Part shown: one piece after another, positions 3,554 through 21,785 of the stretch
How the letters are laid out: every line of letters starts with the position of its first letter
How positions within the stretch are numbered: the stretch's first letter is position 1
DNA from: a virus
Reading direction: 5' to 3' (one strand)
Virus record (IMG/VR): IMGVR_UViG_3300043409_000563
Span: 1-21,989 of that record
Length of the DNA: 21,989 nt
Made by a program: the position numbers and the translations under genes
The notes under the pieces: model-generated
The model's database searches: none
Seen by the model: the letters and a program-made list of their open reading frames with translations, nothing else
Told to the model about the DNA's origin: nothing

Positions 3554-5671
3554 ATGGCCGACATCGACGAGAACCCCCCGTCCATCGCGGTTGATCCCGC
3601 AGACAAGGCACCCGTTTCCCAGATCAGGTCTGAGGTGCTTAAAATGCTCGGTGACGGGCTCATGCGGACATTCGAGCAGTACGCGTCCGACCGGCAGGTG
3701 GCTGAGCAGAAGTGGCTGAGGAACCTGCGACAGTACCTCGGCGTCTACGACCCCGACATTGAGAAGATGATCCCGGCAAACCGGTCGAGGGCCTACCCGC
3801 GCGTGACGCGGGTGAAGTGCATCTCGGTGCTGTCGCGCATCATGAACCTGATGTTCCCCGGCAACGAGCGCAACTGGGAAGTCAAGGCATCTCCCTCGCC
3901 CGACATGGCACCCGACGACGTGATGGAAGCGATCAAGCGCGAGATGGCGAAGCAGCAGCAGGAAGGCGTGCAGGTCCAGATGACAGATGAGCTGATTGGC
4001 TACGCTGTCAAGAAGCTCGCGGACGAGCGCGCGGAAGCACTGGCGCTGCTCATCGACGACCAGCTGCAGGAGATCGGCGGCGACCAGACGATGGATTATA
4101 TCGCGCTCAATCGCAAGGTCGCGGCGTCGGGCATCATGTTCGGCCTCGGCGTGCTGCGCGGGCCGTTCGTCATCACATCGCAGCGGACGAAGTGGGAGAT
4201 CGACCCGGCCACGCAGCAGCCCGTACCCAAGATCGTCGAGGGCTACAAGCCCATGTTCGAATTCCTGCCGGTGTGGGATTTCTACCCCGACATGAGTTCG
4301 AAGACGCTCGTGCAGATGGACGGCTGGTTCTCGCGGGCTGTCATGAGCAAGTCGCAGCTGCGCGCACTGGCCAACCGGAGCGACTTCTTCGGCGACCAGA
4401 TCAAGGCGTACCTCATGCGCAACCAGACCGGCAACTACAAGCCGCGCACTTTCGAGACCGAGCTGCGCACCATGGGTGTGAAGGTCAATGTGAACGACCA
4501 GAAGACCGAGAGCGGCAAGTACGAGATACTGGTCTGGCACGGGCCGATCTCGGCGCAGCAGCTCGTGGCTGCCGGTGCCGACGTGCCGAAGGACAAGATG
4601 GCCGACGACATTGAAGCCGAGGTGTGGATGGTCGAGGGTACGGTCATCAAGGCCGACATCAACCAGTGGCGCAAGATCGGCGTCGAGGTGCGCACGATCC
4701 ATCCGTTCCTGTTCGATGAGGACGACACGTCGCCGGTCGGCACCGGCCTGCCTGCCGTGGTGCGTGACAGCCAGATGTCGATCTCGGCCACCACGCGCAT
4801 GCTGCTCGACAACGCCTCGTCCGTGTGCGGCCCGAACTTGGAGCTGAACACTGAGCTGCTTCGTCCAGATCAGGACATTACCAACGTCCACGCCTACAAG
4901 ATTTGGTATCGCGAAGGGACGGGGCCGGACGCCCAGTTCCCGGCAGTGCGCAACGTGGTGATTGAGAGCCACATGGATGAGCTGCTGAAGGCCATCGACC
5001 TGTTCATGCGCTTTGCCGACATGGAGACCTTCGTTGGTCCGGCGACCGGTGGCGACATGTCCAAGGCTCCGTCAGAGCCCATGCGCACGGCGGCGGGAGC
5101 ATCCATGTTGCGGGGTGACGCGTCGCTACCCTTCAAGGACATCGTGCGCAACTTCGACAGCTTCACCCAGTCGGTGATCTACGCGCTGGTGCTGTTCAAC
5201 AAGAAGTTCAACCCGGATCGCGCCAAGCCGGGCGACTACAACGTGATCGCACGTGGTGCAACGAGCCTCATCGCCAAGGAGATCAGGGGCATTCAGGTGG
5301 ACAGTCTCGCGATGTCGCTCACGGACGGCGAGAAGATGCACGTGGACGATCGCAAGCTCGTCGAGGCGCGCTTCGCGGTACGCGACATGTCGAACATGCT
5401 GCTGCCGATGGACGACGTGATGCGCAAGCAGGCTGCCAACCAGCAGATGATGCAGGCTCAGAACGAGCAGCAGCAGAAGCTTACGGAAGCCAACGTGCGC
5501 AAGCTGCTCTCCGACGCACTCAAGAACATCGCGCAGGCACAGAAGAACAGCGCCGCTGCCGACGCGACCACAGCACAGGCGGCGCTCGACATCATGGAGA
5601 AGGGCCTCAATGTCATTGACGGATCGCAAGAGCAGGGCGGAAGCTCTGGTTCGGGTTCTTCGGGAGCGTAG
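3554..5671 (+). CDS. Portal protein
   Basis: 705 residues, ATG at 3554 with AGGTGA at 7-nt spacing. It forms the dodecameric ring at the head vertex through which DNA enters and leaves, and docks terminase and adaptor. Size and place directly after TerL fit the long podoviral portals. The N-terminal part is helical with a conserved-looking wing/clip region (RSRAYPRVTRVKCISVLSRI, about 78-97, then NLMFPGNERNW). The C-terminal 110 residues are Gln/Ala-rich coiled helix (RKQAANQQMMQAQNEQQQ), which resembles a portal barrel, and end in a Gly/Ser tail. The last 62 nt overlap the next gene in another frame. Confidence 0.9.
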   Translation: MADIDENPPSIAVDPADKAPVSQIRSEVLKMLGDGLMRTFEQYASDRQVAEQKWLRNLRQYLGVYDPDIEKMIPANRSRAYPRVTRVKCISVLSRIMNLMFPGNERNWEVKASPSPDMAPDDVMEAIKREMAKQQQEGVQVQMTDELIGYAVKKLADERAEALALLIDDQLQEIGGDQTMDYIALNRKVAASGIMFGLGVLRGPFVITSQRTKWEIDPATQQPVPKIVEGYKPMFEFLPVWDFYPDMSSKTLVQMDGWFSRAVMSKSQLRALANRSDFFGDQIKAYLMRNQTGNYKPRTFETELRTMGVKVNVNDQKTESGKYEILVWHGPISAQQLVAAGADVPKDKMADDIEAEVWMVEGTVIKADINQWRKIGVEVRTIHPFLFDEDDTSPVGTGLPAVVRDSQMSISATTRMLLDNASSVCGPNLELNTELLRPDQDITNVHAYKIWYREGTGPDAQFPAVRNVVIESHMDELLKAIDLFMRFADMETFVGPATGGDMSKAPSEPMRTAAGASMLRGDASLPFKDIVRNFDSFTQSVIYALVLFNKKFNPDRAKPGDYNVIARGATSLIAKEIRGIQVDSLAMSLTDGEKMHVDDRKLVEARFAVRDMSNMLLPMDDVMRKQAANQQMMQAQNEQQQKLTEANVRKLLSDALKNIAQAQKNSAAADATTAQAALDIMEKGLNVIDGSQEQGGSSGSGSSGA

Positions 5672-5858: not shown

Positions 5859-6776
5859 ATGGCTGACGCGGCTGAGACGGAACTGCAGACGACAACGACC
5901 GTGGTGAACTTCGACGATGCGTTCGCGATGCTCGCGGACATCGACAAGAAGTTCGAAGATGATGTGGCGGCGGGCAAGACACCCACGCCTCCTGCAGCCC
6001 AAGAGACGCCCGCTGAGACCCCGGCTCCTGCTCCGGCTGCCGAGGAGCCCAAGGTCGAGGAGAAGCCCGCAGAGGCCCCCGCACCGGCCCCTGCACCGGC
6101 TCCGGCTCCCGCTGCCGAGGAGGAGGACGAGGAAGCCACCGACGACGTGCTCGCGAAGCTCGCGAAGCTGGTGAAGGAAACACCGGCAGCGCCCGCACCG
6201 GCACCCGCGCCTGCCCCTGCCGCCGAGCCGCAGCTGCTCAGCGACGAGGAGAGCAGCTTCGTCCAGAACTACGAGAAGGAGTGGCCGGACATCGCGAAGG
6301 CCGAGAGCCTGCGCCGCAAGGTCGAGTACAAGCAGCTCGTGAACTACGTCTTCTCGCAGGTGGCGCAGGAACTGCGGCCCCTGTTCGAAACGGTGCAGGT
6401 GCTGTCCACGCGCACCCACCACCAAGACCTCACATCCAAGGTGGAAGATTACGACAACGTCCGTGACAAGGTCATCGACTGGGTCGGCAAGCAGCCCACA
6501 TATTTGCAGGTTGCGTACAAACATGTTATTGAGAACGGAACGGTCGATGAGATCAGCGATCTCGTGGGCCGGTTCAAGCGAGAAACAGGTGCTGTGACGG
6601 CACAGCCAGTGGCCCCGGCCCCGGCACCTGCGAAGAAGGAAACTGAGCTGCCTTCAGCGACCAAACAAGCGGCTGCTGCATTGGCCCCAGTCAGTTCCAA
6701 ACGGTCGGCAGTACCGCAGGCCGCAGACCCCAACGACTTTGAGGCTGCGTTTGCGTCATTCGCCAGCAAAATGTGA
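5859..6776 (+). CDS. Scaffolding protein (probable)
   Basis: 305 residues, ATG with GAGGAG at 6-nt spacing. It would direct assembly of capsid subunits into a prohead and then leave. It lies immediately before the major capsid gene, the classic scaffold position. Composition fits: highly charged, with acidic helices at the N-terminus, two Ala/Pro/Glu-rich hinge stretches (about residues 46-90 and 106-125), a helical core (about 127-245) and another Pro/Ala linker before a short C-terminal helix (DPNDFEAAFASFASKM) that could be the capsid-binding end. No protease motif is seen. Confidence 0.82.
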   Translation: MADAAETELQTTTTVVNFDDAFAMLADIDKKFEDDVAAGKTPTPPAAQETPAETPAPAPAAEEPKVEEKPAEAPAPAPAPAPAPAAEEEDEEATDDVLAKLAKLVKETPAAPAPAPAPAPAAEPQLLSDEESSFVQNYEKEWPDIAKAESLRRKVEYKQLVNYVFSQVAQELRPLFETVQVLSTRTHHQDLTSKVEDYDNVRDKVIDWVGKQPTYLQVAYKHVIENGTVDEISDLVGRFKRETGAVTAQPVAPAPAPAKKETELPSATKQAAAALAPVSSKRSAVPQAADPNDFEAAFASFASKM

Positions 6777-6797
6777 ACTTAAATTGGAGCTAAACCC

Positions 6798-7832
6798 ATG
6801 AACGCGATCACCTACGGTGACATCTCCCCGGCAGTCGCAGCCTATGCTGTTGTTCGCATGCTCAAGCGCGCGATGCCTTTCCTCCAGCTGGAGAAGTTCG
6901 GCCAGACCTACCCTCTGCCGACGAACTCCACCCAGACCGCCAAGTTTCGTCGCTACTTCCTCAGCGGCGCGACCGGCACGGCGGGCAACAGCTCGGGCAA
7001 CTACTACATGCCGGTGGCTACCACGCCGCTGGTTGAAGGCGTGACCCCGGCTGGCAGCAAGCTCGCCAATCAGGACTACACGGTGACACTCGCCCAGTAC
7101 GGCGACTACGTGACCATCACCGACGTGGTCGAAGACACGCACACCGACAAGGTGCTCGCGGAAGCCACCGACATCCTCGGTGAACAGGCGGCTCTCACCG
7201 TCGAGACGCTGCGCTTCAACGTCCTCAAGGCAGGCACCAACGTGTTCCTCGGAAACAGCGTTGGTTCACGCGATGCGATCGTCACCGCGATCTCGCTCAC
7301 CGACCAGCGCCGTGTGACCACTGCCCTCAACCGGCAGAACGCGAAGAAGATCACATCGGTCGTCGCATCCAACGCCGACTTCAACACGAAGTCCGTGGAA
7401 GCGTCCTACATGGCGGTGTGCCATCCCGACCTCGAAACGGACATCCGTGGCATGACCGGCTTCAAGCCGGTGGCTGACTACGGGCCGCACACTTCGCCCT
7501 TCGAAGGCGAGATCGGCTCGGTCGAGCAGGTGCGCTACCTGACCTCGACCGTGATCGCTCCGTGGGCGGATGCCGGTGGCAACAAGGGCGCGATGCGCTC
7601 GACCTCGGGCACCAAGGCCGATGTCTACCCGGTCCTGATCTTCGCTCGCGACGCCTTCGGTATCGTCCCGCTCAAGGGCAAGTCGTCCATGACCCCCATG
7701 GTCGTGAACCCGAAGCCCTCGGCAGGCGACCCGCTGGCCCAGCGCGGCACTGTCGGCTGGAAGCTGTGGACCGCCACGGTGATCCTGCAGGAAGCCTTCA
7801 TGGCTCGCCTTGAGGTCGCTGCGACGGCCTAA
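6798..7832 (+). CDS. Major capsid protein, N4-gp56 family
   Basis: 344 residues, ATG with GGAG at 8-nt spacing. It is the HK97-fold shell subunit. The N-terminal half matches the N4-gp56 family pattern I know: RMLKRAMPFLQLEKFGQ, then PLPTNSTQTAKFRRY, LVEGVTPAGSKL, and VTLAQYGDYVTITDVVEDTH. The usual C-terminal part follows, with FARDAFGIVPLKG and a final QEAFMARLEV strand. Length is normal and the gene is intact. It is followed by a terminator-like hairpin, which may set the amount of downstream message relative to capsid. Confidence 0.95.
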   Translation: MNAITYGDISPAVAAYAVVRMLKRAMPFLQLEKFGQTYPLPTNSTQTAKFRRYFLSGATGTAGNSSGNYYMPVATTPLVEGVTPAGSKLANQDYTVTLAQYGDYVTITDVVEDTHTDKVLAEATDILGEQAALTVETLRFNVLKAGTNVFLGNSVGSRDAIVTAISLTDQRRVTTALNRQNAKKITSVVASNADFNTKSVEASYMAVCHPDLETDIRGMTGFKPVADYGPHTSPFEGEIGSVEQVRYLTSTVIAPWADAGGNKGAMRSTSGTKADVYPVLIFARDAFGIVPLKGKSSMTPMVVNPKPSAGDPLAQRGTVGWKLWTATVILQEAFMARLEVAATA

Positions 7833-7839
7833 CGATAAC

Positions 7840-7872
7840 GGGGGTGGCCTAGCGCCGCCCCTTTCATCCTTT
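7840..7872 (+). terminator. Terminator-like hairpin after the capsid gene
   Basis: GGGGTGGC (7841-7848) pairs with GCCGCCCC (7854-7861), with one G-T wobble and a 5-nt loop, followed by TTTCATCCTTT. The tract is interrupted, so partial termination is likely. It sits between the capsid gene and the next late gene in an otherwise continuous operon. Confidence 0.6.
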
Positions 7873-7897
7873 CCACATCCTTCTAGGAGTTACGAAT

Positions 7898-8242
7898 ATG
7901 ACAACCACCACAGTAGCAGCGCGGTCTCAGGCGCGGGGTATCTCGAACTTCGCCTCTGGCTCCTTCACTTCGGACGGCAACGTCACGAACATCACGCTCG
8001 GCTTCGTGCCGCGCTACATGAAGGTGTTCAACAACACCGACGTGATCCAGTGGGAGAAGACCGAAGGCATGGCGGCAGCCGACGCGGTGAAGACCGTGGC
8101 AGGCTCCACCGGGGCCAGCGACACGATCGCCACGACCGTCGAGACCGGCTCCGATGTGCTGTTCAACAGCGACGGCACGGTGTCCCTGTCGGCGGCTCTC
8201 GTCGGCAGCTCCAAGGCGATCTCTTGGATCGCAATGGCCTGA
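7898..8242 (+). CDS. Hypothetical virion protein downstream of capsid
   Basis: 114 residues, ATG with AGGAG at 8-nt spacing. Thr/Ser/Ala/Gly-rich with alternating beta pattern (VTNITLGFVPRYMKVFNN, then SDVLFNSDGTVSLSAALVGS), no membrane segment. The place directly after the capsid gene and the all-beta look suggest a head decoration or accessory capsid protein. This is inference from context; I do not recognise a named family. Confidence 0.8.
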   Translation: MTTTTVAARSQARGISNFASGSFTSDGNVTNITLGFVPRYMKVFNNTDVIQWEKTEGMAAADAVKTVAGSTGASDTIATTVETGSDVLFNSDGTVSLSAALVGSSKAISWIAMA

Positions 8243-8247
8243 TGAAC

Positions 8248-8269
8248 TGAGGGGGCTCCGGCCCCCTCA
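8248..8269 (+). terminator. Perfect hairpin with TCCG loop, no T-run
   Basis: TGAGGGGGC (8248-8256) / GCCCCCTCA (8261-8269), a 9-bp perfect stem closed by a TCCG tetraloop of the UNCG type. The sequence after it is AAACCACTT, so intrinsic termination is doubtful. It may instead stabilise the 3' end of the capsid-region message or mark a processing site. Confidence 0.5.
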
Positions 8270-8320
8270 AACCACTTCTCGGGGGCGCGTATGCTCTACC
8301 CAGTATCGGAGGCCACGGCC

Positions 8321-8575
8321 ATGGACGGCAACACCATCAGGATCATGCGCCACAAGAATGGCTTCGAAATCGAGATGCGCGATCCGAAGATCGAAGAAGC
8401 CAATCGCAAGGCCAAGGGTGGCCGATGGCAGAACCCCGAGGTCTCCTACGTGTTCAAGACATTCAAGGAGCTGCAGGACTTCCTGACGGCCAACCTTGAG
8501 AAGGCGCTGCCGGTGCCAAAGCCGGACGCATACGAAACCAGCTTCGCGGAAGCTGCAACAGAGGACGACGACTGA
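8321..8575 (+). CDS. Hypothetical protein, connector region
   Basis: 84 residues from ATG at 8321, chosen because GGAGG lies at 8-nt spacing. An in-frame ATG at 8291 would add 10 residues but has only a G-run upstream. Pattern: short beta strand IRIMRHKNGFEIEM, a helix DPKIEEANRKAK, strand VSYVFKT and helix FKELQDFLTANLEK, then an acidic tail. I believe similar small proteins occur in this place in other podovirus-like genomes with N4-gp56 capsids, but I cannot name a function. It is coupled to the next gene by TGATG. Confidence 0.78.
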   Translation: MDGNTIRIMRHKNGFEIEMRDPKIEEANRKAKGGRWQNPEVSYVFKTFKELQDFLTANLEKALPVPKPDAYETSFAEAATEDDD

Positions 8576-8919
8576 TGACGGACTTTGACGACATCGAACC
8601 GAACCTGCCGCCCGCCAAGAGCAGCAGGACCGCCAAGAAGGCTGACGCCAAGGTGCGGAAACCTCAGACAGTTACGGCACCCGGCAAGGTGCGTCTCGTT
8701 GTCGAGGAAAACGATAGCATTCCGCCCACCGGCCTGTTCCTCGGGCTCAATGGTATCGGTTATCTCCTGCGCCCCGGCGAGGAGGTTGAGGTGCCGCTCG
8801 GCGTGAAGGAAATTCTGGACCACGCCGTGATGTCCACGCCGCAGATGGACCCCTCCACGCAGCAGGTCATTGGCTATCGTGAAAGAATGCGCTATCCCTA
8901 CCGGCTAGTGACCACCTGA
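8575..8919 (+). CDS. Hypothetical conserved phage protein
   Basis: 114 residues, ATG overlapping the previous stop by one base, GAGGA at 9-nt spacing. Residues 1-36 are polar, Lys-rich and likely disordered. Residues 37-112 form a compact beta domain (GKVRLVVEENDSIPPTGLFL, GYLLRPGEEVEVPLG, then QQVIGYRERMRYPYRLV). I recall this type of small protein between capsid and adaptor genes in related phages. Function unknown; a minor head or connector part is plausible. Confidence 0.82.
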   Translation: MTDFDDIEPNLPPAKSSRTAKKADAKVRKPQTVTAPGKVRLVVEENDSIPPTGLFLGLNGIGYLLRPGEEVEVPLGVKEILDHAVMSTPQMDPSTQQVIGYRERMRYPYRLVTT

Positions 8920-8933
8920 CATGAGGCCGACCG

Positions 8934-9695
8934 ATGAACCTTCAGGAGCTGCTGGACGAGCTTCGGGTTAATATCCTGAACGACCGTACCGACCGAATTG
9001 AAGGGTCGTCGGACTATCTCTGGACTGATGCGACGCTGATCCGATACATCAATGAGGCTCAGCGTCGCTTCGCACGTCAGGGGCTTGTGATCCGCGACAG
9101 CAAGACCACCGAGGTCTGCGAAGTCACGATGCAGACCGGCGTCGAGGAGTATACCCTTCACCAATCAGTGCTCGCAGTCATCTCCGCGAAGATCGCGGAC
9201 GATACGTTCGACTTGCGCCGGGGCGGACATTCGATGTTCGACAGCTACCGCGCGCCGGACGATCAGGTCTTCGATGTGAACCAGTTCGCATCTGCCGCGC
9301 CGGGCAAGCCACTCGTGTTCTCGACCGACGAGACACTGGTAGCGGATGACAACGGCTCCGTCAGTGTGGTGTCCATGCGCCTGTATCCGAAACCTTCTGC
9401 GGACTACAACGGGCTCAAAGTCAAGCTGCGTGTTGTGCGGCTCCCGATCGAACCGCTGAAGGGTCTGAAGCAGGTGCCGGAGGTTCCCGAGGATCACCAT
9501 CTCGACATGCTCGACTGGGCGGCGTATCTGGCGCTGCGCGTCGTCGATCACGATGCAGGTAATCCGGGTCGCGCGCACGAGTTCCGCAAGATGTTCGAAA
9601 ATCATGTGCGGGATGCGCGGGCCACCGCGATGCGCAAGTTGTTCGCCCCGGCAGGTTGGGGCTTTGGCCGTAACGGCTTTATCTGGGAGCACTGA
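8934..9695 (+). CDS. Head-tail adaptor/connector protein
   Basis: 253 residues, ATG with GAGG at 7-nt spacing. Helical N-terminus (LQELLDELRVNILND, then WTDATLIRYINEAQRRFARQ) is the typical opening of phage adaptor proteins that bind below the portal. A beta-rich middle follows (about 55-175), then a helical C-terminus (HLDMLDWAAYLALRVVDHDA, then HEFRKMFENHVRDARATAM). Length and position after the capsid block fit a podoviral adaptor. The exact family is not certain. Confidence 0.8.
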   Translation: MNLQELLDELRVNILNDRTDRIEGSSDYLWTDATLIRYINEAQRRFARQGLVIRDSKTTEVCEVTMQTGVEEYTLHQSVLAVISAKIADDTFDLRRGGHSMFDSYRAPDDQVFDVNQFASAAPGKPLVFSTDETLVADDNGSVSVVSMRLYPKPSADYNGLKVKLRVVRLPIEPLKGLKQVPEVPEDHHLDMLDWAAYLALRVVDHDAGNPGRAHEFRKMFENHVRDARATAMRKLFAPAGWGFGRNGFIWEH

Positions 9696-9697
9696 TC

Positions 9698-11185
9698 ATG
9701 GCTGACGGCGTCACGATTTCGAGGAACACACCGGACGAGATGGATAAGTGGCTCAAGGGCCAAATCCAGCTCAATCAGAAGCTCTACGGAGAAGACGAGA
9801 CAGCGCGTGCCGCGAAGAACGCGAGCCCGAAGATTGGCGATGTCATGGACTTCGGCGCAGGCTCGTTCGGCAAGTACGTGACAGGTGCAGACGGCAAGCC
9901 GACGACGGTCCCGGTCGATGCGACCGGCAAGGCGCTGCAGGCTGCCCCGGAGCAGCCGAAGTTCTCGCGCGAGCAGCTGGATGCGTACTACGCGAAGCCA
10001 GAGAACAAGCCGTACCCGCTGACGAGCTTCGCCCTCGGTTACGCCGATGGCTCCTCGCGCTGGCTCAACAACAACTCCTTTGGCCTGATCCCGTCATTCG
10101 CTGACACGATGGCGAAGAACAAGGGCATCCCTGCAGACCAAGCGCAGATGATCCTCGACGCCGGTATCCGTGCGAACGACAAGTCGGGCTTCGCGGGTCA
10201 GGCGATCAGCACGGCGGCTCCCACGGCGCTGTCGATCATGGCCGCAGGCGAGGCGCTTCCGGCGATCTGGGCAGGCAAGGGCGCGGCGCTGAAGGGCGGC
10301 GTAGAGATCGCGAAGGGGCTTGGCCGAATGGCGAAGGCGGCGGCGCCTGAGATCGGCACGGCACTTGGCACGGCGGTCAGCATGCCCTTCGCCATGCGAG
10401 GCATGCTTGACGATGCAACGAAGACGCCTGCGTCGGAGCAGAACGCGGCAACGGCCCCTTCCGCAACTGCTCCTGCAGCCACGGCTCCGGCTGTGGCTGC
10501 ACCTGCGGTTCAGGGCGCGACACAGAACGCGCCATCGATCGGAGATCAGCTCGTGAGCCCGCCCTCGACCGTCAACATCGGCGGCACGAGCTACACGCGC
10601 AGCGTCGATCCGCAGTCGAAGACAGGCATGTACTACGGCACCGACAAGCAGGGCGGCGTCATGGCGCTGTCCGAGCAGGATGTGGCTGGCAAGCTCCAAG
10701 CGGAGAGCGCGGAGAAGGGCCGGGCATTCCTGCCGGAAGTCTACGAGCTGCGGACCGTCAACCCGATGGGCGCTCCGGTGCGCGGGATGGCGAACCTGCG
10801 CGAGATCGACAGGAACAATTTCACACCTGAGGTCGAGAAGGAATTCCAGCAGGTGTCGGAGAACACAGGCACCTCCCTGCAGCAGCTGCGCCAGATCGCG
10901 GCAGGCCGGGCAGCGGCAGGCTGGGGCTACGGCCTCGGTCGTGCGGACCGGGCAACAGCGCCGGTCACAAGTGCTGATGTCGCCGCGAGCCAGTGGAACA
11001 CACTGCAGCAGGCGATGGAGGGATCAATCGCTGCGGCGGGTGATGACCCGAAGAAGAAGCGAGTGGTCTACGACGCATGGACATCGGTGCTGGCGAACAT
11101 CAACGGGGCCAAGAGTGGCAAGAGCGTTGATCAGGCACTGGAGACCCTGCAGCAGATCATGAGCGAACAGGGTCAGGCCGAATAG
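9698..11185 (+). CDS. Internal virion/ejection protein (probable)
   Basis: 495 residues, ATG with GGGAG at 8-nt spacing. Residues about 1-115 are polar. Residues about 165-245 are an Ala/Gly-rich amphipathic or hydrophobic stretch (AISTAAPTALSIMAAGEALP and onward) that could insert into membranes. Residues about 250-277 are an Ala/Pro/Thr hinge. After a small beta segment (VNIGGTSYTRS) the C-terminal half is helical and Gln/Ala-rich. No enzyme motif is found. It stands directly before the giant ejection-type gene, and the Ala/Gly-rich membrane-active design is shared with it, so a role as a partner injected with the DNA is inferred. Confidence 0.65.
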   Translation: MADGVTISRNTPDEMDKWLKGQIQLNQKLYGEDETARAAKNASPKIGDVMDFGAGSFGKYVTGADGKPTTVPVDATGKALQAAPEQPKFSREQLDAYYAKPENKPYPLTSFALGYADGSSRWLNNNSFGLIPSFADTMAKNKGIPADQAQMILDAGIRANDKSGFAGQAISTAAPTALSIMAAGEALPAIWAGKGAALKGGVEIAKGLGRMAKAAAPEIGTALGTAVSMPFAMRGMLDDATKTPASEQNAATAPSATAPAATAPAVAAPAVQGATQNAPSIGDQLVSPPSTVNIGGTSYTRSVDPQSKTGMYYGTDKQGGVMALSEQDVAGKLQAESAEKGRAFLPEVYELRTVNPMGAPVRGMANLREIDRNNFTPEVEKEFQQVSENTGTSLQQLRQIAAGRAAAGWGYGLGRADRATAPVTSADVAASQWNTLQQAMEGSIAAAGDDPKKKRVVYDAWTSVLANINGAKSGKSVDQALETLQQIMSEQGQAE

Positions 11186-11205
11186 TTTAATCTGGAGAAC
11201 GTTTC

Positions 11206-14200
11206 GTGGATACGAAGCTCGACAGCTCAAAGTTTCCTCTACTCAACGAACTGATGCGCAACCCGCCGCCTGCGGTGGAAGCCGAGAAGCCGCAGAACAC
11301 CGGCTGGCTCGCGCCCGGCATCAGCGCCGGTATCGACAATATGCAGTCGAGCTTCGGCAGCTACATCCAGTCCGTGGGTGACATCGCGCGGTCGCCCACT
11401 ATCGCCCAGTTCGGTAAGGACATGGCGGTGCGCAACGATCTGGAAGCTGCGCAGAATGGGCGTCCCGACCGCGAGAGCTTTCGTGACCTGCAAAGCTGGT
11501 CTGAGGTGCCGAGCTTCGTTGGCTATCAGGTCGCGAAGCAAGTGCCGCAGATCGGCGCGAGCTTGCTGGCCGCATGGCTGGGCAAGAAGTTTGTCACACC
11601 ATACATGCCGGAAGCAGCGGCCACAGTCGGTGCGAAGGTGCCGGGCTGGCTCGGCGGTGGTGGCGCGCTCGTAGGCGACGCCGCAAAGAAGAAGGGTGCC
11701 GAGTGGGCTGCAGCGATGGCCGCGCAGGTTCCGCTCAACTTCCCGCTGGCTGCAGGCAGCATGTACAGTGAGGCCGACGCGGCAGGAAACGCCGGGCCGG
11801 GCGCTGCGCTCGCGGCGAACGCGCTCGCGATCCCGTACTCCATCATGGAAGGCTTCCAGCCCGCCGCATTGGAGAGCGCACTGGCAAAGGGCCTCACCGG
11901 CAACTTCCTCAAGCGCGTAGGAATGAGTTCCGCAGTCGGCGCGGCGACAGAGACCGTGACCGAAGGTGTGCAGACCGGCATGGAGCAGGCGTTCCGTACC
12001 GACCTGCCTCTGCGCGACAAGCTAAGCAACGTCGTCGAAGGCGCGCTCACGGGTGGCATGGTCGGCGGCATCCTCGGCTCGTTCGGTGGTATCCGCAGGC
12101 TCAAGACTGCCGACCCCGCATCGGTCACGAATGATGACATCGGCAAGATCGTCGATGATGCTACATCCGACAAGATGGCTCAGCCGCCGACGCCGATGCA
12201 GCGTGACGGCGCTCCGATGCCGCCTCTGCGCGATAACCGCCCGCTTGGTGCGCGCACGGCTGACGGCAAGAACTACGCCATCCCGACTGAAGAACTGATG
12301 GCCGGGCTTGCCAAGGCGCAGCAGCACCAGATGGACGTGCAGCAAGGTGCACAGCGGAATGACTTCGCCGCCTACTTCGGCACCGAGCAGTCTCCGGTGA
12401 CTGAGAACCCGGCGACAACGACGATCATGGAACGCATCAAGCAGGAGCTTGACCTGCGCGATCAGGAGCAGCAGGGGATCGCGCCGGTCGAGGACCCTGC
12501 GGTCGCCGCCGACATGATGCGCACCATCGCGCAGGGTCCGATGCAGGGTGAGGTGCGTACCTACGAGGACACGCGGAACCCGGCCTACGAGGCACCTGCG
12601 CCGGTCGCGGCTGAGCCCGCACCTGTGGCTCCGTTTGCCAGCCCTGCCTCCGAACCCACATTTGAGCTGTTTGATCCTCAGGGTGAGCGCCTTGGGGAGC
12701 AGCAGGCTCCGGTGTCGAAGAATGTCGAGGTGCCGCCCGACACCAAGGAGATCGCTGCGCGCAAGACCGAGACCTCCAAGCTCCTCGGGGACAACAAGTC
12801 TCAGTGGGCGAAGGACATCATCAATGCTCCGACCAAGGACAATGTCGATGTCTTGAGCAACGCGCTGAAGACAATGGACAGCTACGACGCGCGGAACGTG
12901 AAGCCGCCGTCGAAGCTGCTGGAGTACCTGCGCGCCGAGAAGGTCGTGGACGACAAGGGTGTCCGGCGCAACATCCCTGCTGAGCTGGATGCGGCAGCCG
13001 CCAAGGTCGATGAGCTGCAGGCGCGTGCCCGGCAGCTTGGCACGGCGCAGGCGCTGGCCGAGGCGAAGAAGTTCCAGAAGGAGCAGTACGACCCGCTGCT
13101 GGCGACTGCCACGAAGCTCAAGGAAGCTGCGAAGCGGCAGTCCGTGACGCAGCAGGCTCCTGTGGGCGCGGAAGGCATCGACGCGGATCAGCTCATCGGC
13201 AACAAGCAGTCCGAAGGATCGACCGCATACGAGGCCGCGCAGACATTGGAGCGCGCAGCCCCTGTGTGGGATGCGGTGCTCGGCAAGGCGAACGACAGCG
13301 CACCGCTCGCAAAGGTGAAGACTGAAAATCTTCTATCTGAACTCGCAGCTGTTCAATCGCGGGCCATCACCGGGACGGCCAACACTGAGTGGGCGCAGCT
13401 GTTCGGTGAGCAGCCCGGCGTGTCGATGCCGCGCAAGACGGACGTGGCGCGTACTCAGCAGCTCCAGCAGGAACTGGCCCGGCGCGATGCAGCGGCTCCG
13501 GCGCAGGCCGAGAAGCCGGTCAGTGGTTCGCGCGACATGTTCGGCAAGCGGGCTCCCATCGACCTGAGTGCTGAGCAGCTTAATCCGGCGCAGAAGTACG
13601 CCGCGTCGCTCACGTCGTCGAAGACGCAGGGTGCCGCGAGCTTCGTGGTCGATAACCTCAAGTACGCCGAGGACGAGGGCACCGTGGTCCGCACGGTCGC
13701 CAACGAGATCGCCAAGATGCAGCAGGCCGGTAAGGCGCTGCCCAGCTTCCTGCGTGACATGGGGCAGAACATCGGCCTCATTGACGAGAGCGGCAAGGTT
13801 CGCGATCTCAACAAGGAGCTTCGCGATGCGCAGAAGAAGCTCGCCAACATGTGGGCTGCCGCGAAGAAGGCCGGTGGCGATGGCAAGCAGGCGCAGGCGT
13901 ACCAGCGCCAGACCGTGCAGCCGCTGATCGACACAGCAGAGCGCATCAACGCCGCGCTGACACTTGCACCCAAGCCCGCGTCGGACATCAGGCAGGGCGG
14001 TGTGCGCGAGATGATGCTGAACCCTGCCGAGGCAGCAGTGGCAATGCCTGCCCAGCGTGAGGGCGTGACACTGGAACGCAAGCTGGCGATGCTCGGCACA
14101 ATCGCGAAGGACAACAGCCCGAAGGTGCGCCACATGCACGCTGCGGCTCGCGATGCGCGGGCCATGGTCGAGAGCTTTGCGCCCAACGCGACGGCGGCGA

Positions 14201-17200
14201 TGGATACTCTGCTCGCCAAGTACGCGCGCATCACAGGCGGTGTCATGTTCAGCCGTGTCGCTGCGGATCAGCAGGGGCCTCCGCTGCAGCGTGCCGACTT
14301 CGACAAGGCGCTCACCGCGATCATCAGCAAGCTGCCTGCGTCCGCACGCAACATCATCACGGTCGTGGAGACGACCAACGATCTACCATCTGAAGTCTTG
14401 GTTGCTGCCGAGCAGCAGGGCTTCCCGGCGAGCGAAATTCACGGTGTGCTGTATGGTGGCCGCGTCTACGTTGTGCGCGACAAGATCAGCTCTGCGGAGG
14501 ACCTGCAAGAGGTCATCAACCACGAGGTGTTTGGTCACGGCGGCGCGCGGGCGCTGTTCGGGGACCAGCGCGAGGCGATGCTGTCTACGGCATTCAAGCT
14601 GGCCGGTGGTGTCGAGGGACTGCGCCGGATCGCGCGGGCCTTCGGTGTCGAAGCGCAGCTGAACCCTTACATCCCGGCGCGCGAGCTGACGGACGCCGAC
14701 AAGGCGGCTCTGGTAGATGAGCTGCTGGCGCAGGCTGCAGGGGTCGCCACCGGCAAGTTCAAGACCGCAGTGCTCTCGTGGGTGGGCACATTCAAGAACG
14801 CCCTGTACAACGTCCTGAAGGCCGTGGGGCTCGACACTCTGGCAGAGCGGCTGAACACCTTCGACGCTGCTGACCTTGCAGTGATGATGACCAACATGCG
14901 CGACGCGGTCGAGCGCGGCAATGCCATCGACGGCAAAGGCGTGGCCTTCAAGTTCTCGACGCCGCAAGGCATGAACGAGAGCGCGCAGAACTTCATGAAG
15001 ACCGCCGAGAACATCAAGGGCTGGTTTGCAGACAAGGCATGGCCGGAGCTGTCGCTGAAGATGAACCAGTTCCATCTCTACACCAGCACGCTCGGCCACA
15101 TCGCGGACTTCTTCGGGTCGGCGTTCCAGCGCGGCGAAAAGAACGCGTTGAAGGATTACGCGAGCTACGTTCATGATCTCAGCACCGTGAACCATCAGAT
15201 CGCGCATCTGGTGAAGATTTCATACGCGGCCTACGAGACACTTGAGCAGGGCTTCCCGAAGGCGGCGAAGGCCGTTGGAGACCTGATGGGTGCTGCGTAC
15301 TACCGGATCGACCCGCGCAAGACGTGGGACGCGCAGCCGACGCTGCACGCCAATCCTTCGCTCAAGCCGATCGCTGAGGGCTATCACAAGCTCTACAACG
15401 ACCTGCGCCAGAACAAGGCGGCAGCCGGAGTGTACGACGCATTCATCGAAACGAACGAAGCCGTGCACTTCATGCAGCAGGCGATGGTGCTCTACAATCT
15501 TCTCGCCACCGATGGTGATGTCTCGCAGGACGTGAAGACCAATCTCGCGACGCGGAACCCGATGGATGAGTTCCGCAACACGGAGAGCGCGTTCTCCAAC
15601 CTCAGGAGCGCCCGCGACTTCTGGAAGTCCAAGGTGGACAGCCTCATAAACTTCACGGACAGCTACGTGAAGGCACAGCGCGGCATGCTGGGCCTGTCGA
15701 ACGAGGAGACCAAGGGCAAGATCAACCGCAGCACCAGCACGCTGGATGCGATGGTGACGGACTTCCGGCAGCAGCACACAGCCATGTCGCAGGCTCCGTA
15801 CTTCCATCTCGGGCGGTTCGGTGACTACGTGGTCTCGTTCTACATCAAGGCGGATGAGAACGACGTGGTGTCTCCCGACAAGTATTCTAGGATCGCGGAA
15901 GCGTTCAAGGCTGCGGGTGTCGATGGTATCGAAATCCCGCCCGGCTCGACGCGGCACAACGTCTTCCTCCGGTTCGAAAGCCTGTCAGCGATGCAAGAGG
16001 CTGCCCGTGTGGCGCGTCAGCTCGCGAAGGAAGGTATTGTGCGGGACGACGGAGACAACAAGATCAAGGCTTACACGCGCGAGCACGAGAGCGAGATCGA
16101 CAGCTTGGAGCTTCAGCGCCGCCCGCAGTGGGCCAGCGCACTGGTTGCATCCATCAAGTCCGAGCACTTCGGAAAGTACGAGAACCTGTCCGAGGAGCAG
16201 CAGAAGCTCGTCAACTCAATGAACAACGAGTACGAGCGGCACGTGACGCAGTTCCTCATCAACCTGCTGCCGGACACCGCGCAGAGCAAGGTGATGGTCC
16301 ATCGCAACTCGGTGCCGGGCTACTCGTCCGACATGATCAGGTCCTTCCTGTTCCGCACGAACGTGGCCGGTCGAGCGATTGCCAGCCTCTACGCATCTCC
16401 GAAGATGGCCTCGTCGATGGCAGGCATGTTCGAAGTGGCGAAGGATGCGCGGACCGATCCCGACATCAAGAAGGGCCTCGTGGTCCAGAACATCGTGTCG
16501 GAAGTTATGAAGCGTGATGCTGACCGGCGCATGGTGGTAGGCAATACCTTCCTCGACACGGTGAACGCCTTCAACCACGCCTACTTCATGGGCCTCGCTC
16601 CGTCGCACTTCATCGTGAACCTGACACAGATACCGGTGACGCTGTGGCCCGAGCTGTCGAAGAAGTTCGGGTTCATCCCGTCTGCGAAGGCGATTGCCAA
16701 GGTCACGCCGACAGCCCTCAGCATCATGAAGGCGACGCTGATCGAAGGCAGGAAGCTCGGCTGGAAGAACTTGCCCGACGCGTCGATCACACGTGAGGTG
16801 CTTGAGCGTTCCGATCTGAAGCTCACCAAGTCGCAGATCGAGTTCGTGCTGAAGGTCGTGAACAACAGTCTGGTTGACATTGGCAGCCAGTCTCGCGAGC
16901 AGGGCCGGATCATCGAAGGTAGCGGCGATGCGAAGACCGAGCAGGTGCTGCGCTGGACATCGGCCACAGGCTACTACTCCGAAATGCTCTCCCGTCTCGT
17001 CGCGGCCTTGGCGTCGCGCGAGCTGTACGGCGAGAACACGAAGGGTCTGATGGAGTACACACACAACACGATCCGTCAGTCCATGTTCGACTACGAGCAA
17101 GGCAACCGCGCCCGCGCGACAGGCCGCATGGGTCTGGCCGGGCAGTATACGCCGATCATGACGAGCCTCATGCAGTACACATTCCAGCTGACTGAGAAGC

Positions 17201-18150
17201 TGTACCGCGAGTTCCATGCAGCGTTCGTCGATGGTGCGAAGACCCGCGCAGAGAAGGCCGAAGCCCGCAAGTTCTTGGGCGCGCATCTGGCTGCCGTTAC
17301 CACGCTCGCAGGCACGGTGGGCATGCCGATGGCGAACCTGTTCGCGATGGTCTTCAACAACCTTCGTGACTTGTTCCCTGATGACGATGACGAGCCGACA
17401 GACATCTTGGCTTCGTACAAGAACTTCATGACCTACATCTTCGGCAAGGATGCGGCGAACGTCATCGCGCACGGTGTGCCTCGTGCCTTCGGCATGGACA
17501 TCTCCAAGCGTGTCGGTGAGCAGGACCTGATCCCGTACCTCCACATGTTCTCTCGCGTGCTGCTCGACAAGCGCGCGTGGCAGGACAAGGCGGGCGACGG
17601 TGCCATCGAAGCTCTCGGTGCTCCTGTCAGCATGGCGCTCAAGCTGATGTCCGGCACCGAGCGGATCATGAACGGCGATGTGCTCGGCGGTATGGCGCAA
17701 GCCTTGCCGAATGCGCTTGCAGGCCCGGCGAAGGCAGCATCGCTGTACATCGACGGCTACGTGGACACCAAGGGCAATAAGATACCGATGACTGCCGGTG
17801 GGTCCGACATGTTCTGGCAAGCGATGGGCTTCAACCCGGATCGCCGGGCGCGCTACTCGGAAGCCAAGGGCGTGCAGGCGTCACTCAACGGCGCGATGTT
17901 CCGCAAGCAGCGTCAGCTGCGCGAGGACTTGGTGACGGCACTGGAGGAGGGGAACGTGGACGCTGCCCGAGCTGCATTGCAGGCCGTGAAGCGGTGGGAT
18001 GCACGGAACCCGGAGTTCGACATCCTGCCGACGATCGGCTCCGTGATCGGTTCGCGCAAGCGCGAGCGCGAGCAGGCCGAGCAGAGCAGCACACCGCTTG
18101 GCGTGAAGCCCGAATTGGCCGACCGCACGGCGTTCTTCGGGTACGATTGA
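11206..18150 (+). CDS. Giant virion protein: zincin-like plus LPD38-like
   Basis: 2314 residues, GTG start with GGAGA at 7-nt spacing. Likely carried in the head and ejected into the host. Residues 105-300 are Ala/Gly-rich and amphipathic, with the pattern ATETVTEGVQTGMEQAF seen in phage ejection proteins. Residues 300-1000 are mostly coiled helix with Pro/Ala hinges (e.g. 459-505). Residues about 1045-1180 form a zincin-like peptidase domain: strand GVLYGGRVYVV, then HEVFGHGG (His1106, Glu1107, His1111), with Glu1172 as possible third ligand. Residues about 1690-2115 match the LPD38 domain of large polyvalent phage proteins: VPGYSSDMIRSF, LAPSHFIVNLTQIP (1797-1810), FDYEQGNRAR (1961-1970), a hydrophobic helix at 2027-2052, and GKDAANVIAHGVPRAFGMDI. 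It replaces the several smaller internal proteins of T7-like phages. Domain names are from recalled patterns, not a search. Confidence 0.85.
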   Translation: MDTKLDSSKFPLLNELMRNPPPAVEAEKPQNTGWLAPGISAGIDNMQSSFGSYIQSVGDIARSPTIAQFGKDMAVRNDLEAAQNGRPDRESFRDLQSWSEVPSFVGYQVAKQVPQIGASLLAAWLGKKFVTPYMPEAAATVGAKVPGWLGGGGALVGDAAKKKGAEWAAAMAAQVPLNFPLAAGSMYSEADAAGNAGPGAALAANALAIPYSIMEGFQPAALESALAKGLTGNFLKRVGMSSAVGAATETVTEGVQTGMEQAFRTDLPLRDKLSNVVEGALTGGMVGGILGSFGGIRRLKTADPASVTNDDIGKIVDDATSDKMAQPPTPMQRDGAPMPPLRDNRPLGARTADGKNYAIPTEELMAGLAKAQQHQMDVQQGAQRNDFAAYFGTEQSPVTENPATTTIMERIKQELDLRDQEQQGIAPVEDPAVAADMMRTIAQGPMQGEVRTYEDTRNPAYEAPAPVAAEPAPVAPFASPASEPTFELFDPQGERLGEQQAPVSKNVEVPPDTKEIAARKTETSKLLGDNKSQWAKDIINAPTKDNVDVLSNALKTMDSYDARNVKPPSKLLEYLRAEKVVDDKGVRRNIPAELDAAAAKVDELQARARQLGTAQALAEAKKFQKEQYDPLLATATKLKEAAKRQSVTQQAPVGAEGIDADQLIGNKQSEGSTAYEAAQTLERAAPVWDAVLGKANDSAPLAKVKTENLLSELAAVQSRAITGTANTEWAQLFGEQPGVSMPRKTDVARTQQLQQELARRDAAAPAQAEKPVSGSRDMFGKRAPIDLSAEQLNPAQKYAASLTSSKTQGAASFVVDNLKYAEDEGTVVRTVANEIAKMQQAGKALPSFLRDMGQNIGLIDESGKVRDLNKELRDAQKKLANMWAAAKKAGGDGKQAQAYQRQTVQPLIDTAERINAALTLAPKPASDIRQGGVREMMLNPAEAAVAMPAQREGVTLERKLAMLGTIAKDNSPKVRHMHAAARDARAMVESFAPNATAAMDTLLAKYARITGGVMFSRVAADQQGPPLQRADFDKALTAIISKLPASARNIITVVETTNDLPSEVLVAAEQQGFPASEIHGVLYGGRVYVVRDKISSAEDLQEVINHEVFGHGGARALFGDQREAMLSTAFKLAGGVEGLRRIARAFGVEAQLNPYIPARELTDADKAALVDELLAQAAGVATGKFKTAVLSWVGTFKNALYNVLKAVGLDTLAERLNTFDAADLAVMMTNMRDAVERGNAIDGKGVAFKFSTPQGMNESAQNFMKTAENIKGWFADKAWPELSLKMNQFHLYTSTLGHIADFFGSAFQRGEKNALKDYASYVHDLSTVNHQIAHLVKISYAAYETLEQGFPKAAKAVGDLMGAAYYRIDPRKTWDAQPTLHANPSLKPIAEGYHKLYNDLRQNKAAAGVYDAFIETNEAVHFMQQAMVLYNLLATDGDVSQDVKTNLATRNPMDEFRNTESAFSNLRSARDFWKSKVDSLINFTDSYVKAQRGMLGLSNEETKGKINRSTSTLDAMVTDFRQQHTAMSQAPYFHLGRFGDYVVSFYIKADENDVVSPDKYSRIAEAFKAAGVDGIEIPPGSTRHNVFLRFESLSAMQEAARVARQLAKEGIVRDDGDNKIKAYTREHESEIDSLELQRRPQWASALVASIKSEHFGKYENLSEEQQKLVNSMNNEYERHVTQFLINLLPDTAQSKVMVHRNSVPGYSSDMIRSFLFRTNVAGRAIASLYASPKMASSMAGMFEVAKDARTDPDIKKGLVVQNIVSEVMKRDADRRMVVGNTFLDTVNAFNHAYFMGLAPSHFIVNLTQIPVTLWPELSKKFGFIPSAKAIAKVTPTALSIMKATLIEGRKLGWKNLPDASITREVLERSDLKLTKSQIEFVLKVVNNSLVDIGSQSREQGRIIEGSGDAKTEQVLRWTSATGYYSEMLSRLVAALASRELYGENTKGLMEYTHNTIRQSMFDYEQGNRARATGRMGLAGQYTPIMTSLMQYTFQLTEKLYREFHAAFVDGAKTRAEKAEARKFLGAHLAAVTTLAGTVGMPMANLFAMVFNNLRDLFPDDDDEPTDILASYKNFMTYIFGKDAANVIAHGVPRAFGMDISKRVGEQDLIPYLHMFSRVLLDKRAWQDKAGDGAIEALGAPVSMALKLMSGTERIMNGDVLGGMAQALPNALAGPAKAASLYIDGYVDTKGNKIPMTAGGSDMFWQAMGFNPDRRARYSEAKGVQASLNGAMFRKQRQLREDLVTALEEGNVDAARAALQAVKRWDARNPEFDILPTIGSVIGSRKREREQAEQSSTPLGVKPELADRTAFFGYD

Positions 18151-18537: not shown

Positions 18538-18541
<4 letters not shown>
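18194..18541 (+). CDS. Small conserved tail-region protein
   Basis: 115 residues, ATG with GAGG at 5-nt spacing. All-beta pattern: [19 protein letters not shown], then [14 protein letters not shown], ending in [11 protein letters not shown] and [14 protein letters not shown] recognise this layout from small proteins encoded just upstream of tail-fibre genes in many phages, but not a proven function; a fibre-attachment or baseplate-type part is plausible. The stop overlaps the next start as GTGA, so the two are coupled. Confidence 0.82.
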
Positions 18542-20510
<1,969 letters not shown>

Positions 20511-20514
<4 letters not shown>

Positions 20515-21323: not shown

Positions 21324-21785
21324 ATGGCGGTCAATTTCCCCAACAGCCCCGCGCTCAACGAGATTTATGCTTATGGCAACCGATCATGGAAGTGGAATGG
21401 TACAGGATGGATCGCGTACTCAAGTACAGCTGAGATCGGACCAACCGGCCCTGTGGGTGCTACGGGTGCCACTGGTCCTGCTGGCGCTACTGGTCCTTCT
21501 GGTGCCGATGGTGCTGCTGGCGTCACAGGCGCTACCGGAGCGACTGGTCCTTCTGGTGTCGATGGTGCCTCAGGTCCCTCTGGTGTTGCTGGCGTGGATG
21601 GCGCTACTGGACCCTCAGGGGCCACTGGAGCAACCGGAGCAACTGGACCGGCAGGAGCTGACGGTGCTACAGGAGCAACTGGACCTGCTGGAGCCACCGG
21701 ACCAAGCGGAGCTTCGGGAGCGACTGGACCGACAGGTCCGACTGGCCCGCAAGGGGACGTAGGCTTTCTTCTGATGGGTGGGTGA
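21324..21785 (+). CDS. Second, short collagen-like tail protein
   Basis: 153 residues, ATG with AGGAGA at 5-nt spacing. Residues 1-35 are a small module ([20 protein letters not shown], then NGTGW) of a type often placed at the N-terminus of phage fibre proteins. Residues 39 to about 144 are Gly-X-Y repeats, and the protein ends in [10 protein letters not shown] with no globular head, unlike the long fibre upstream. Codons differ from the first collagen gene: GGT/GCT/ACT units at first, then GGA/GCA/ACT units. It might form a short rod or be a remnant of a longer fibre, or assemble with the next protein. Confidence 0.82.

Follow-up and report, generated by a model that had tools for sequence, protein, structure and literature searches.

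A giant, cysteine-free protein of a probable Rollin-like phage carries a predicted HEXXXH-type zincin module and may process itself

What might a phage gain from a single polypeptide of over two thousand residues with a metalloprotease-like motif near its middle? The window analysed here, i.e., the whole stretch of 21,989 nucleotides, is a viral record of 22 kb to which nothing in the phage collection is closely related, and it raises this question through one long gene:

11206..18150, + strand: giant polyvalent protein of virion/ejection type; open frame of 2314 aa with zero cysteines

As the initial annotation had proposed, the protein is encoded by one uninterrupted frame (11206-18150, +), which starts with GTG and is preceded by GGAG at 11194-11197, 8 bases 5′ of the start codon. 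Neither megablast in phages nor a pattern scan revealed a close relative of the whole giant protein. The genes located 5′ of it encode the terminase large subunit, the portal, a probable scaffold, the major head protein and structural proteins; two of them are given here as context:

3554..5671, + strand: portal (head-tail adaptor family), phrog_332; 39.5% identity to Rollin over 296 aa
6798..7832, + strand: major head protein, phrog_1357; 47% identity to Rollin

Pseudomonas phage Rollin has its portal, scaffold, head and tail genes in the same order, and it has its own giant gene (2184 aa) at the equivalent position. Judged from gene order and sequence, the giant protein probably belongs to a Rollin-like short-tailed phage. 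The Rollin counterpart (OR577172, annotated OppA) has its gene place, zincin and C-terminus in common with the window protein, whereas the two are 26% identical and the Rollin motif, HEMGH, is shorter by one residue. For two such giant genes (L003, 912-8966; L008, i.e., Rollin, 5938-12492) the public annotations, 'putative portal' and 'oligopeptide ABC transporter OppA', are apparently mistaken. Downstream of the window's giant gene, two collagen-repeat proteins (18538-20514 and 21324-21785) are probably tail fibres.

The central part of the giant protein contains a module defined by conservation and predicted fold:

14266..14943, + strand: zincin (MPTase) module, residues 1021-1246
14521..14538, + strand: HEVFGH, residues 1106-1111; HExxxH-spaced motif, predicted to bind zinc and to be catalytic
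14719..14721, + strand: Glu1172, predicted third metal ligand, conserved in 61/63 homologues

HEVFGH is the sole HExx(x)H site in the 2314-aa protein. The conservation analysis covered 63 modules that share less than 90% identity and came from bacterial genomes as well as from phages and viral contigs; at 40% identity they form 38 clusters. His1106 and Glu1107 occur in every module (63/63 each), and His1111 (62/63), Glu1172 (61/63) and, less strictly, Gly1113 (55/63) are retained; the two rows lacking Glu1172 are second tandem copies (HELGGH) from Acinetobacter prophages and are possibly misaligned. As most modules are only 13-32% identical to that of the window, this conservation rules out a chance origin of the motif. 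The HExxGH site and the guess that Glu1172 is the third ligand, both made from the window sequence, thus gained support, and conservation of His1106, Glu1107 and His1111 in homologues, set beforehand as a test, was found. Among 75 countable motifs the spacing was HExxxH in 70 (52 of them HExxGH) and HExxH in 5. Frames of more than 1000 aa are nearly the sole setting of the module, and no close relative of it was found in plasmids.

AlphaFold2, run on residues 1021-1246 with 19 alignment rows, returned a model with a mean pLDDT of 81 and a pTM of 0.75. Its elements are ordered as a helix, a small sheet, a long helix carrying HE (model residues 77-112) and a helix with Glu1172 (143-160). This corresponds to the architecture of the HEXXXH clade, in which a helix and a three-stranded sheet are followed by two helices, the second of these C-terminal helices holding the conserved Glu. 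It also agrees, if indirectly, with the geometric test set at the outset, by which His1106, His1111 and Glu1172 should meet around a metal site. Plain Foldseek in PDB gave no match at E 0.001. A second look at solved structures with VIA-align showed that every row above Z 5 is a zincin: the catalytic part of lethal factor (7.5), PPEP-1 (6.5), MATCAP (5.7) and a HExxH-domain oxygenase (5.2), all middling values, below Z 8, by the program's own note. IrrE (Z 5.0) and ArdC (Z 4.7) follow below, and in some additional rows it is the N-terminal domain of lethal factor that aligns. In BFVD, eight matches had E <0.001, and several of the best named ones are large polyvalent proteins. Taken with the conservation, the agreement of the model with unrelated zincins makes a persuasive case that the module would adopt a zincin-type arrangement, as first proposed. 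Zinc would presumably be bound by His1106, His1111 and Glu1172, with Glu1107 as the general base.

Among the domains of phage polyvalent proteins the zincin MPTase is the most frequent, and it includes a HEXXXH set, in which the helix is likely bent (Iyer et al. 2017, PMC5512222). The window module has the same HExxxH motif, the Glu in the next helix and the setting in a giant phage protein, here perhaps beside an LPD domain; no essential difference was seen, and in the tree set no other copy exceeds 30% identity to that of the window. By its sequence, the window motif is a fresh example of this already known clade. The earlier view that such spacing is hardly described was not supported; it is described in PMC5512222, PMC10499314 and PMC5805324. 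HExxxH is functional in dipeptidyl peptidase III and tubulin carboxypeptidases (PMC5805324, PMC10499314), and dipeptidyl peptidase III varies between HExxGH and HExxH (PMC5805324). Dipeptidyl peptidase III (M49) and TMCP/MATCAP share a HExxGH or HExxxH zinc site with the window protein; no sequence relation to the module was found for either, the likeness to MATCAP being that of the fold match given above, and the M49 Pfam family had no match in the window protein at E 1.

Outside the zincin, the following parts were distinguished:

11269..12108, + strand: N-terminal Ala/Gly-rich domain of virion structural protein type, residues 22-301; common to Bruynoghevirus orf18 and, weakly, to the N4 vRNAP N-terminus
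12109..14235, + strand: Ala/Gln-rich stretch without a family match, residues 302-1010
15145..15336, + strand: diverged LPD39-like patch, residues 1314-1377; weak match to our own LPD39 profile
15805..15828, + strand: HLGRFGDY, window version of the PLxRFG motif, residues 1534-1541
16213..18081, + strand: PLxRFG/tail-700 C-terminal domain, residues 1670-2292; NF032893, phrog_30335, phrog_10089

The membrane-active-looking N-terminus noted earlier (residues 105-300) held up in part, as an Ala/Gly-rich region that matches virion-protein profiles: residues 22-301 match phrog_6958 (virion structural protein, E 5.7e-17), and residues 102-301 match the N4 vRNAP profile phrog_2206 (E 3e-4). The C-terminal half, first taken as LPD38-like, proved to be of another type. 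No Pfam match to LPD38 (PF18857) was obtained at E 1, profile-profile comparison with LPD38-type C-termini stayed below 1%, and residues 1670-2292 match the NCBIfam model NF032893 'PLxRFG domain' with 230.7 bits (cut-off 100; E 3e-68). PHROGs labels this C-terminus 'DarB-like antirestriction' (phrog_10089). Unlike other PLxRFG giants that share this domain, the window's giant protein gave no match to a methylase or helicase; its motif reads HLGRFG (1534-1539), which differs from PLxRFG in the first letter and sits outside the NF032893-matched stretch. The Pfam model of LPD39 (PF18858) found no match in the window protein. Our own LPD39 profile gave a full-sequence E of 4e-4, obtained in a tiny set, and an E of 0.025 for the best single stretch. 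LPD39 is clear in relatives with the same C-terminus (Rollin, 1F273_PE002, douglas 12A4, L027, L036, L090), and these relatives are devoid of LPD38. In CF418P1, PTXU04 and Vibrio phage D274, the zincin module also stands before the other type of C-terminus, the one with LPD38; occurring before both types, it is a cassette combined with either of two different C-terminal bodies. An AlphaFold2 model of residues 1240-2314 reached a pLDDT of 48 and was kept out of all searches.

How such a protein might reach its place of action is suggested by its composition. None of its 2314 residues is a cysteine, and the giants of CF418P1 (2684 residues), Rollin (2184), 1F273 (3763), douglas (3026), PTXU04 (2197), Pavtok (5007) and SopranoGao (4369) are cysteine-free as well. 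The same holds for known ejected proteins, i.e., N4 gp50 (3500 residues), gp51 and gp52, T7 gp15 and gp16, and P22 gp7, gp16 and gp20. DarB of P1, a contractile-tailed phage, has nine cysteines, and the P1 Dar proteins do not share the scarcity. Altogether, 57/69 zincin-bearing frames lack cysteine. Giant zincin proteins of 2000-5000 residues with none or almost none were seen in the window and in L003, L004, L006-L009, L012, L034-L038, L042, L094 and L097-L099. The absence of cysteine is possibly a sequence mark of ejected proteins that cross the oxidising periplasm; no paper stating this was found in the literature searched, which consisted mostly of journals open without subscription. The lack of cysteine, shared with the ejected T7, P22 and N4 proteins, the synteny with Rollin and the N-terminal virion-protein profile all support the initial proposal of an ejection protein, and the giant protein is probably ejected into the host cell with the DNA.

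Directly outside the modelled domain (1021-1246), the window protein contains two similar peptides:

14245..14256, + strand: MFSR, boundary motif directly before the zincin module, residues 1014-1017
14950..14961, + strand: KFST, boundary motif directly after the zincin module, residues 1249-1252

A short (R/M/K)-F-S-(R/Q/T) peptide flanks the module in many homologues (L009, L012, L027, L035, L047, L048 and others). RFS and FSR were the top two enriched tripeptides in the module flanks (p 2e-7 and 3e-7, uncorrected for about 3100 tripeptides). For the strict form, 25/36 matches fell in border stretches and 11 elsewhere, with 15% expected (p 1.4e-13, 12 clusters); this value is optimistic, since both the regular expression and the limits of the flanks were set once the data had been inspected, and since the rows are related to one another. 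The control dipeptides LS, IS, VS, FA, FT and FG were flat at the borders. Related FS/YS motifs tend to separate successive domains in L036, L037, L027 and L007. The FS motif is absent near the zincins of CF418P1-type proteins, N4, Pavtok and others, which rules it out as a universal mark of polyvalent proteins. The FS peptide is a possible cleavage or linker signal. A bolder version, in which (R/M/K/Q)-F-S-(R/Q/K/T/L/V) is the module's own cut site and a large class of giant ejected proteins are self-cleaving polyproteins with one short recognition peptide, we regard as unlikely. Together, the cysteine scarcity and the FS border peptide are perhaps worth more than the HExxGH motif itself.

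With moderate confidence, we propose that the giant gene of the window, from a Rollin-like phage, specifies a large internal virion protein of the polyvalent kind, which is ejected with the DNA and whose zincin most likely processes the protein itself. Such a protein would begin with an N-terminus like the membrane-crossing segments of the virion/N4-vRNAP type, followed by the Ala/Gln-rich stretch, the HEXXXH zincin, the LPD39-like stretch and the PLxRFG domain. With zinc held by His1106, His1111 and Glu1172 and with Glu1107 acting as general base, the zincin would cut its own polypeptide at the linkers on either side, in the virion or, likelier, after entry; this would release the C-terminal part, leaving the N-terminal one bound to the membrane. 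That the module is proteolytic we infer from its predicted site, and self-cleavage and the positions of the cuts are speculative. Self-processing is favoured by the near confinement of the module to frames of more than 1000 aa, which fits action in cis, by the concentration of FS motifs at both module borders and by the proposal of self-processing for the MPTase class, for which Iyer et al. (2017) suggest this or action on host proteins (PMC5512222). Against it we count the N4 vRNAP, whose zincin aligns to the window's family (HHalign 91%) and which is packaged uncut (PMC5512222, PMC12633501), as well as the CF418P1-type homologues, which carry the same module without the FS border motif. Also counted against this explanation were a homologue with Asn in place of the second His (L087) and the fold scores below Z 8.

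The N4 case introduces the first alternative, in which the zincin folds but processes nothing and instead plugs or regulates the C-terminal body, as the CTD of N4 vRNAP seems to do, and the metal site serves stability or an unseen step. N4 gp50 and the window protein share the order of membrane-type N-terminus, zincin and large C-terminal body and have zero cysteines; they differ in that N4 has HELVH instead of HEVFGH, and no polymerase domain was found in the window protein with Pfam, NCBIfam or the polymerase part of phrog_2206. The structural study of N4 vRNAP found no degradation and assigned no protease function to the zincin domain, which retains HExxH beside the large helical C2 domain, while the CTD inhibits transcription (PMC12633501). 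In most of the complete giants of our set, the module is accompanied by one of the two large C-terminal bodies. An invariant catalytic base (Glu1107) is, however, hard to square with a purely structural site, and we consider this alternative possible but somewhat improbable. Direct homology of the C-terminus of the window's giant protein with the N4 C2 body was also considered and found no support (HHalign about 1%).

Another option is that, after entry, the zincin serves as an effector and cleaves a host protein, either a defence protein or a regulator. Its fold is common to host-targeting metalloproteases, and relatives join the zincin to methylase, helicase and InPase domains, for which a role early in infection is assumed (PMC5512222); but there is no clue to a substrate and the module is almost never free-standing, which leaves this role quite unlikely. 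That the zincin attacks the wall or the outer envelope of the cell while the DNA enters is very improbable: ejected proteins of short-tailed phages do, in general, cross the periplasm, some of them with lytic domains, but no lysozyme, transglycosylase or endopeptidase family matched the giant protein in Pfam, phrog or NCBIfam. Nothing was found that points to a target in host defence or the cell wall, both of which had been suggested initially. That HExxGH is fortuitous and the module no metalloenzyme, a notion to which the lack of a matching Pfam model for the module in the window protein might lend some weight, is hardly credible given its conservation in 63 modules and the predicted fold.

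The family offers a defined module with conserved catalytic and ligand residues, natural HExxH versions (Rollin) and two candidate cut sites in the window, and the self-processing hypothesis is thereby directly testable in laboratory phages. The natural form shorter than HExxGH by one residue is HExGH: HEMGH in Rollin (L008, 5938-12492) and HELGH in its relative L026 (3302-10537), with the rest of the sequence aligning. In the tree, the short HExxH form requires at least three changes, a number equally low in 41/500 label shuffles, and the five 'short' rows include L087, which actually reads HELVGN; in view of the long branches and this weak label test, no particular origin of the short form is claimed here. 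The HELVGN copy is probably inactive, and the same genome (G987) has an intact copy, L077. Tandem HExxxH zincin modules occur within one protein in L036 and L037 (Acinetobacter) and in L039 (Halomonas), and in several prophage proteins (L017, L018, L020-L023) the module is paired with a canonical HEWWH zincin.
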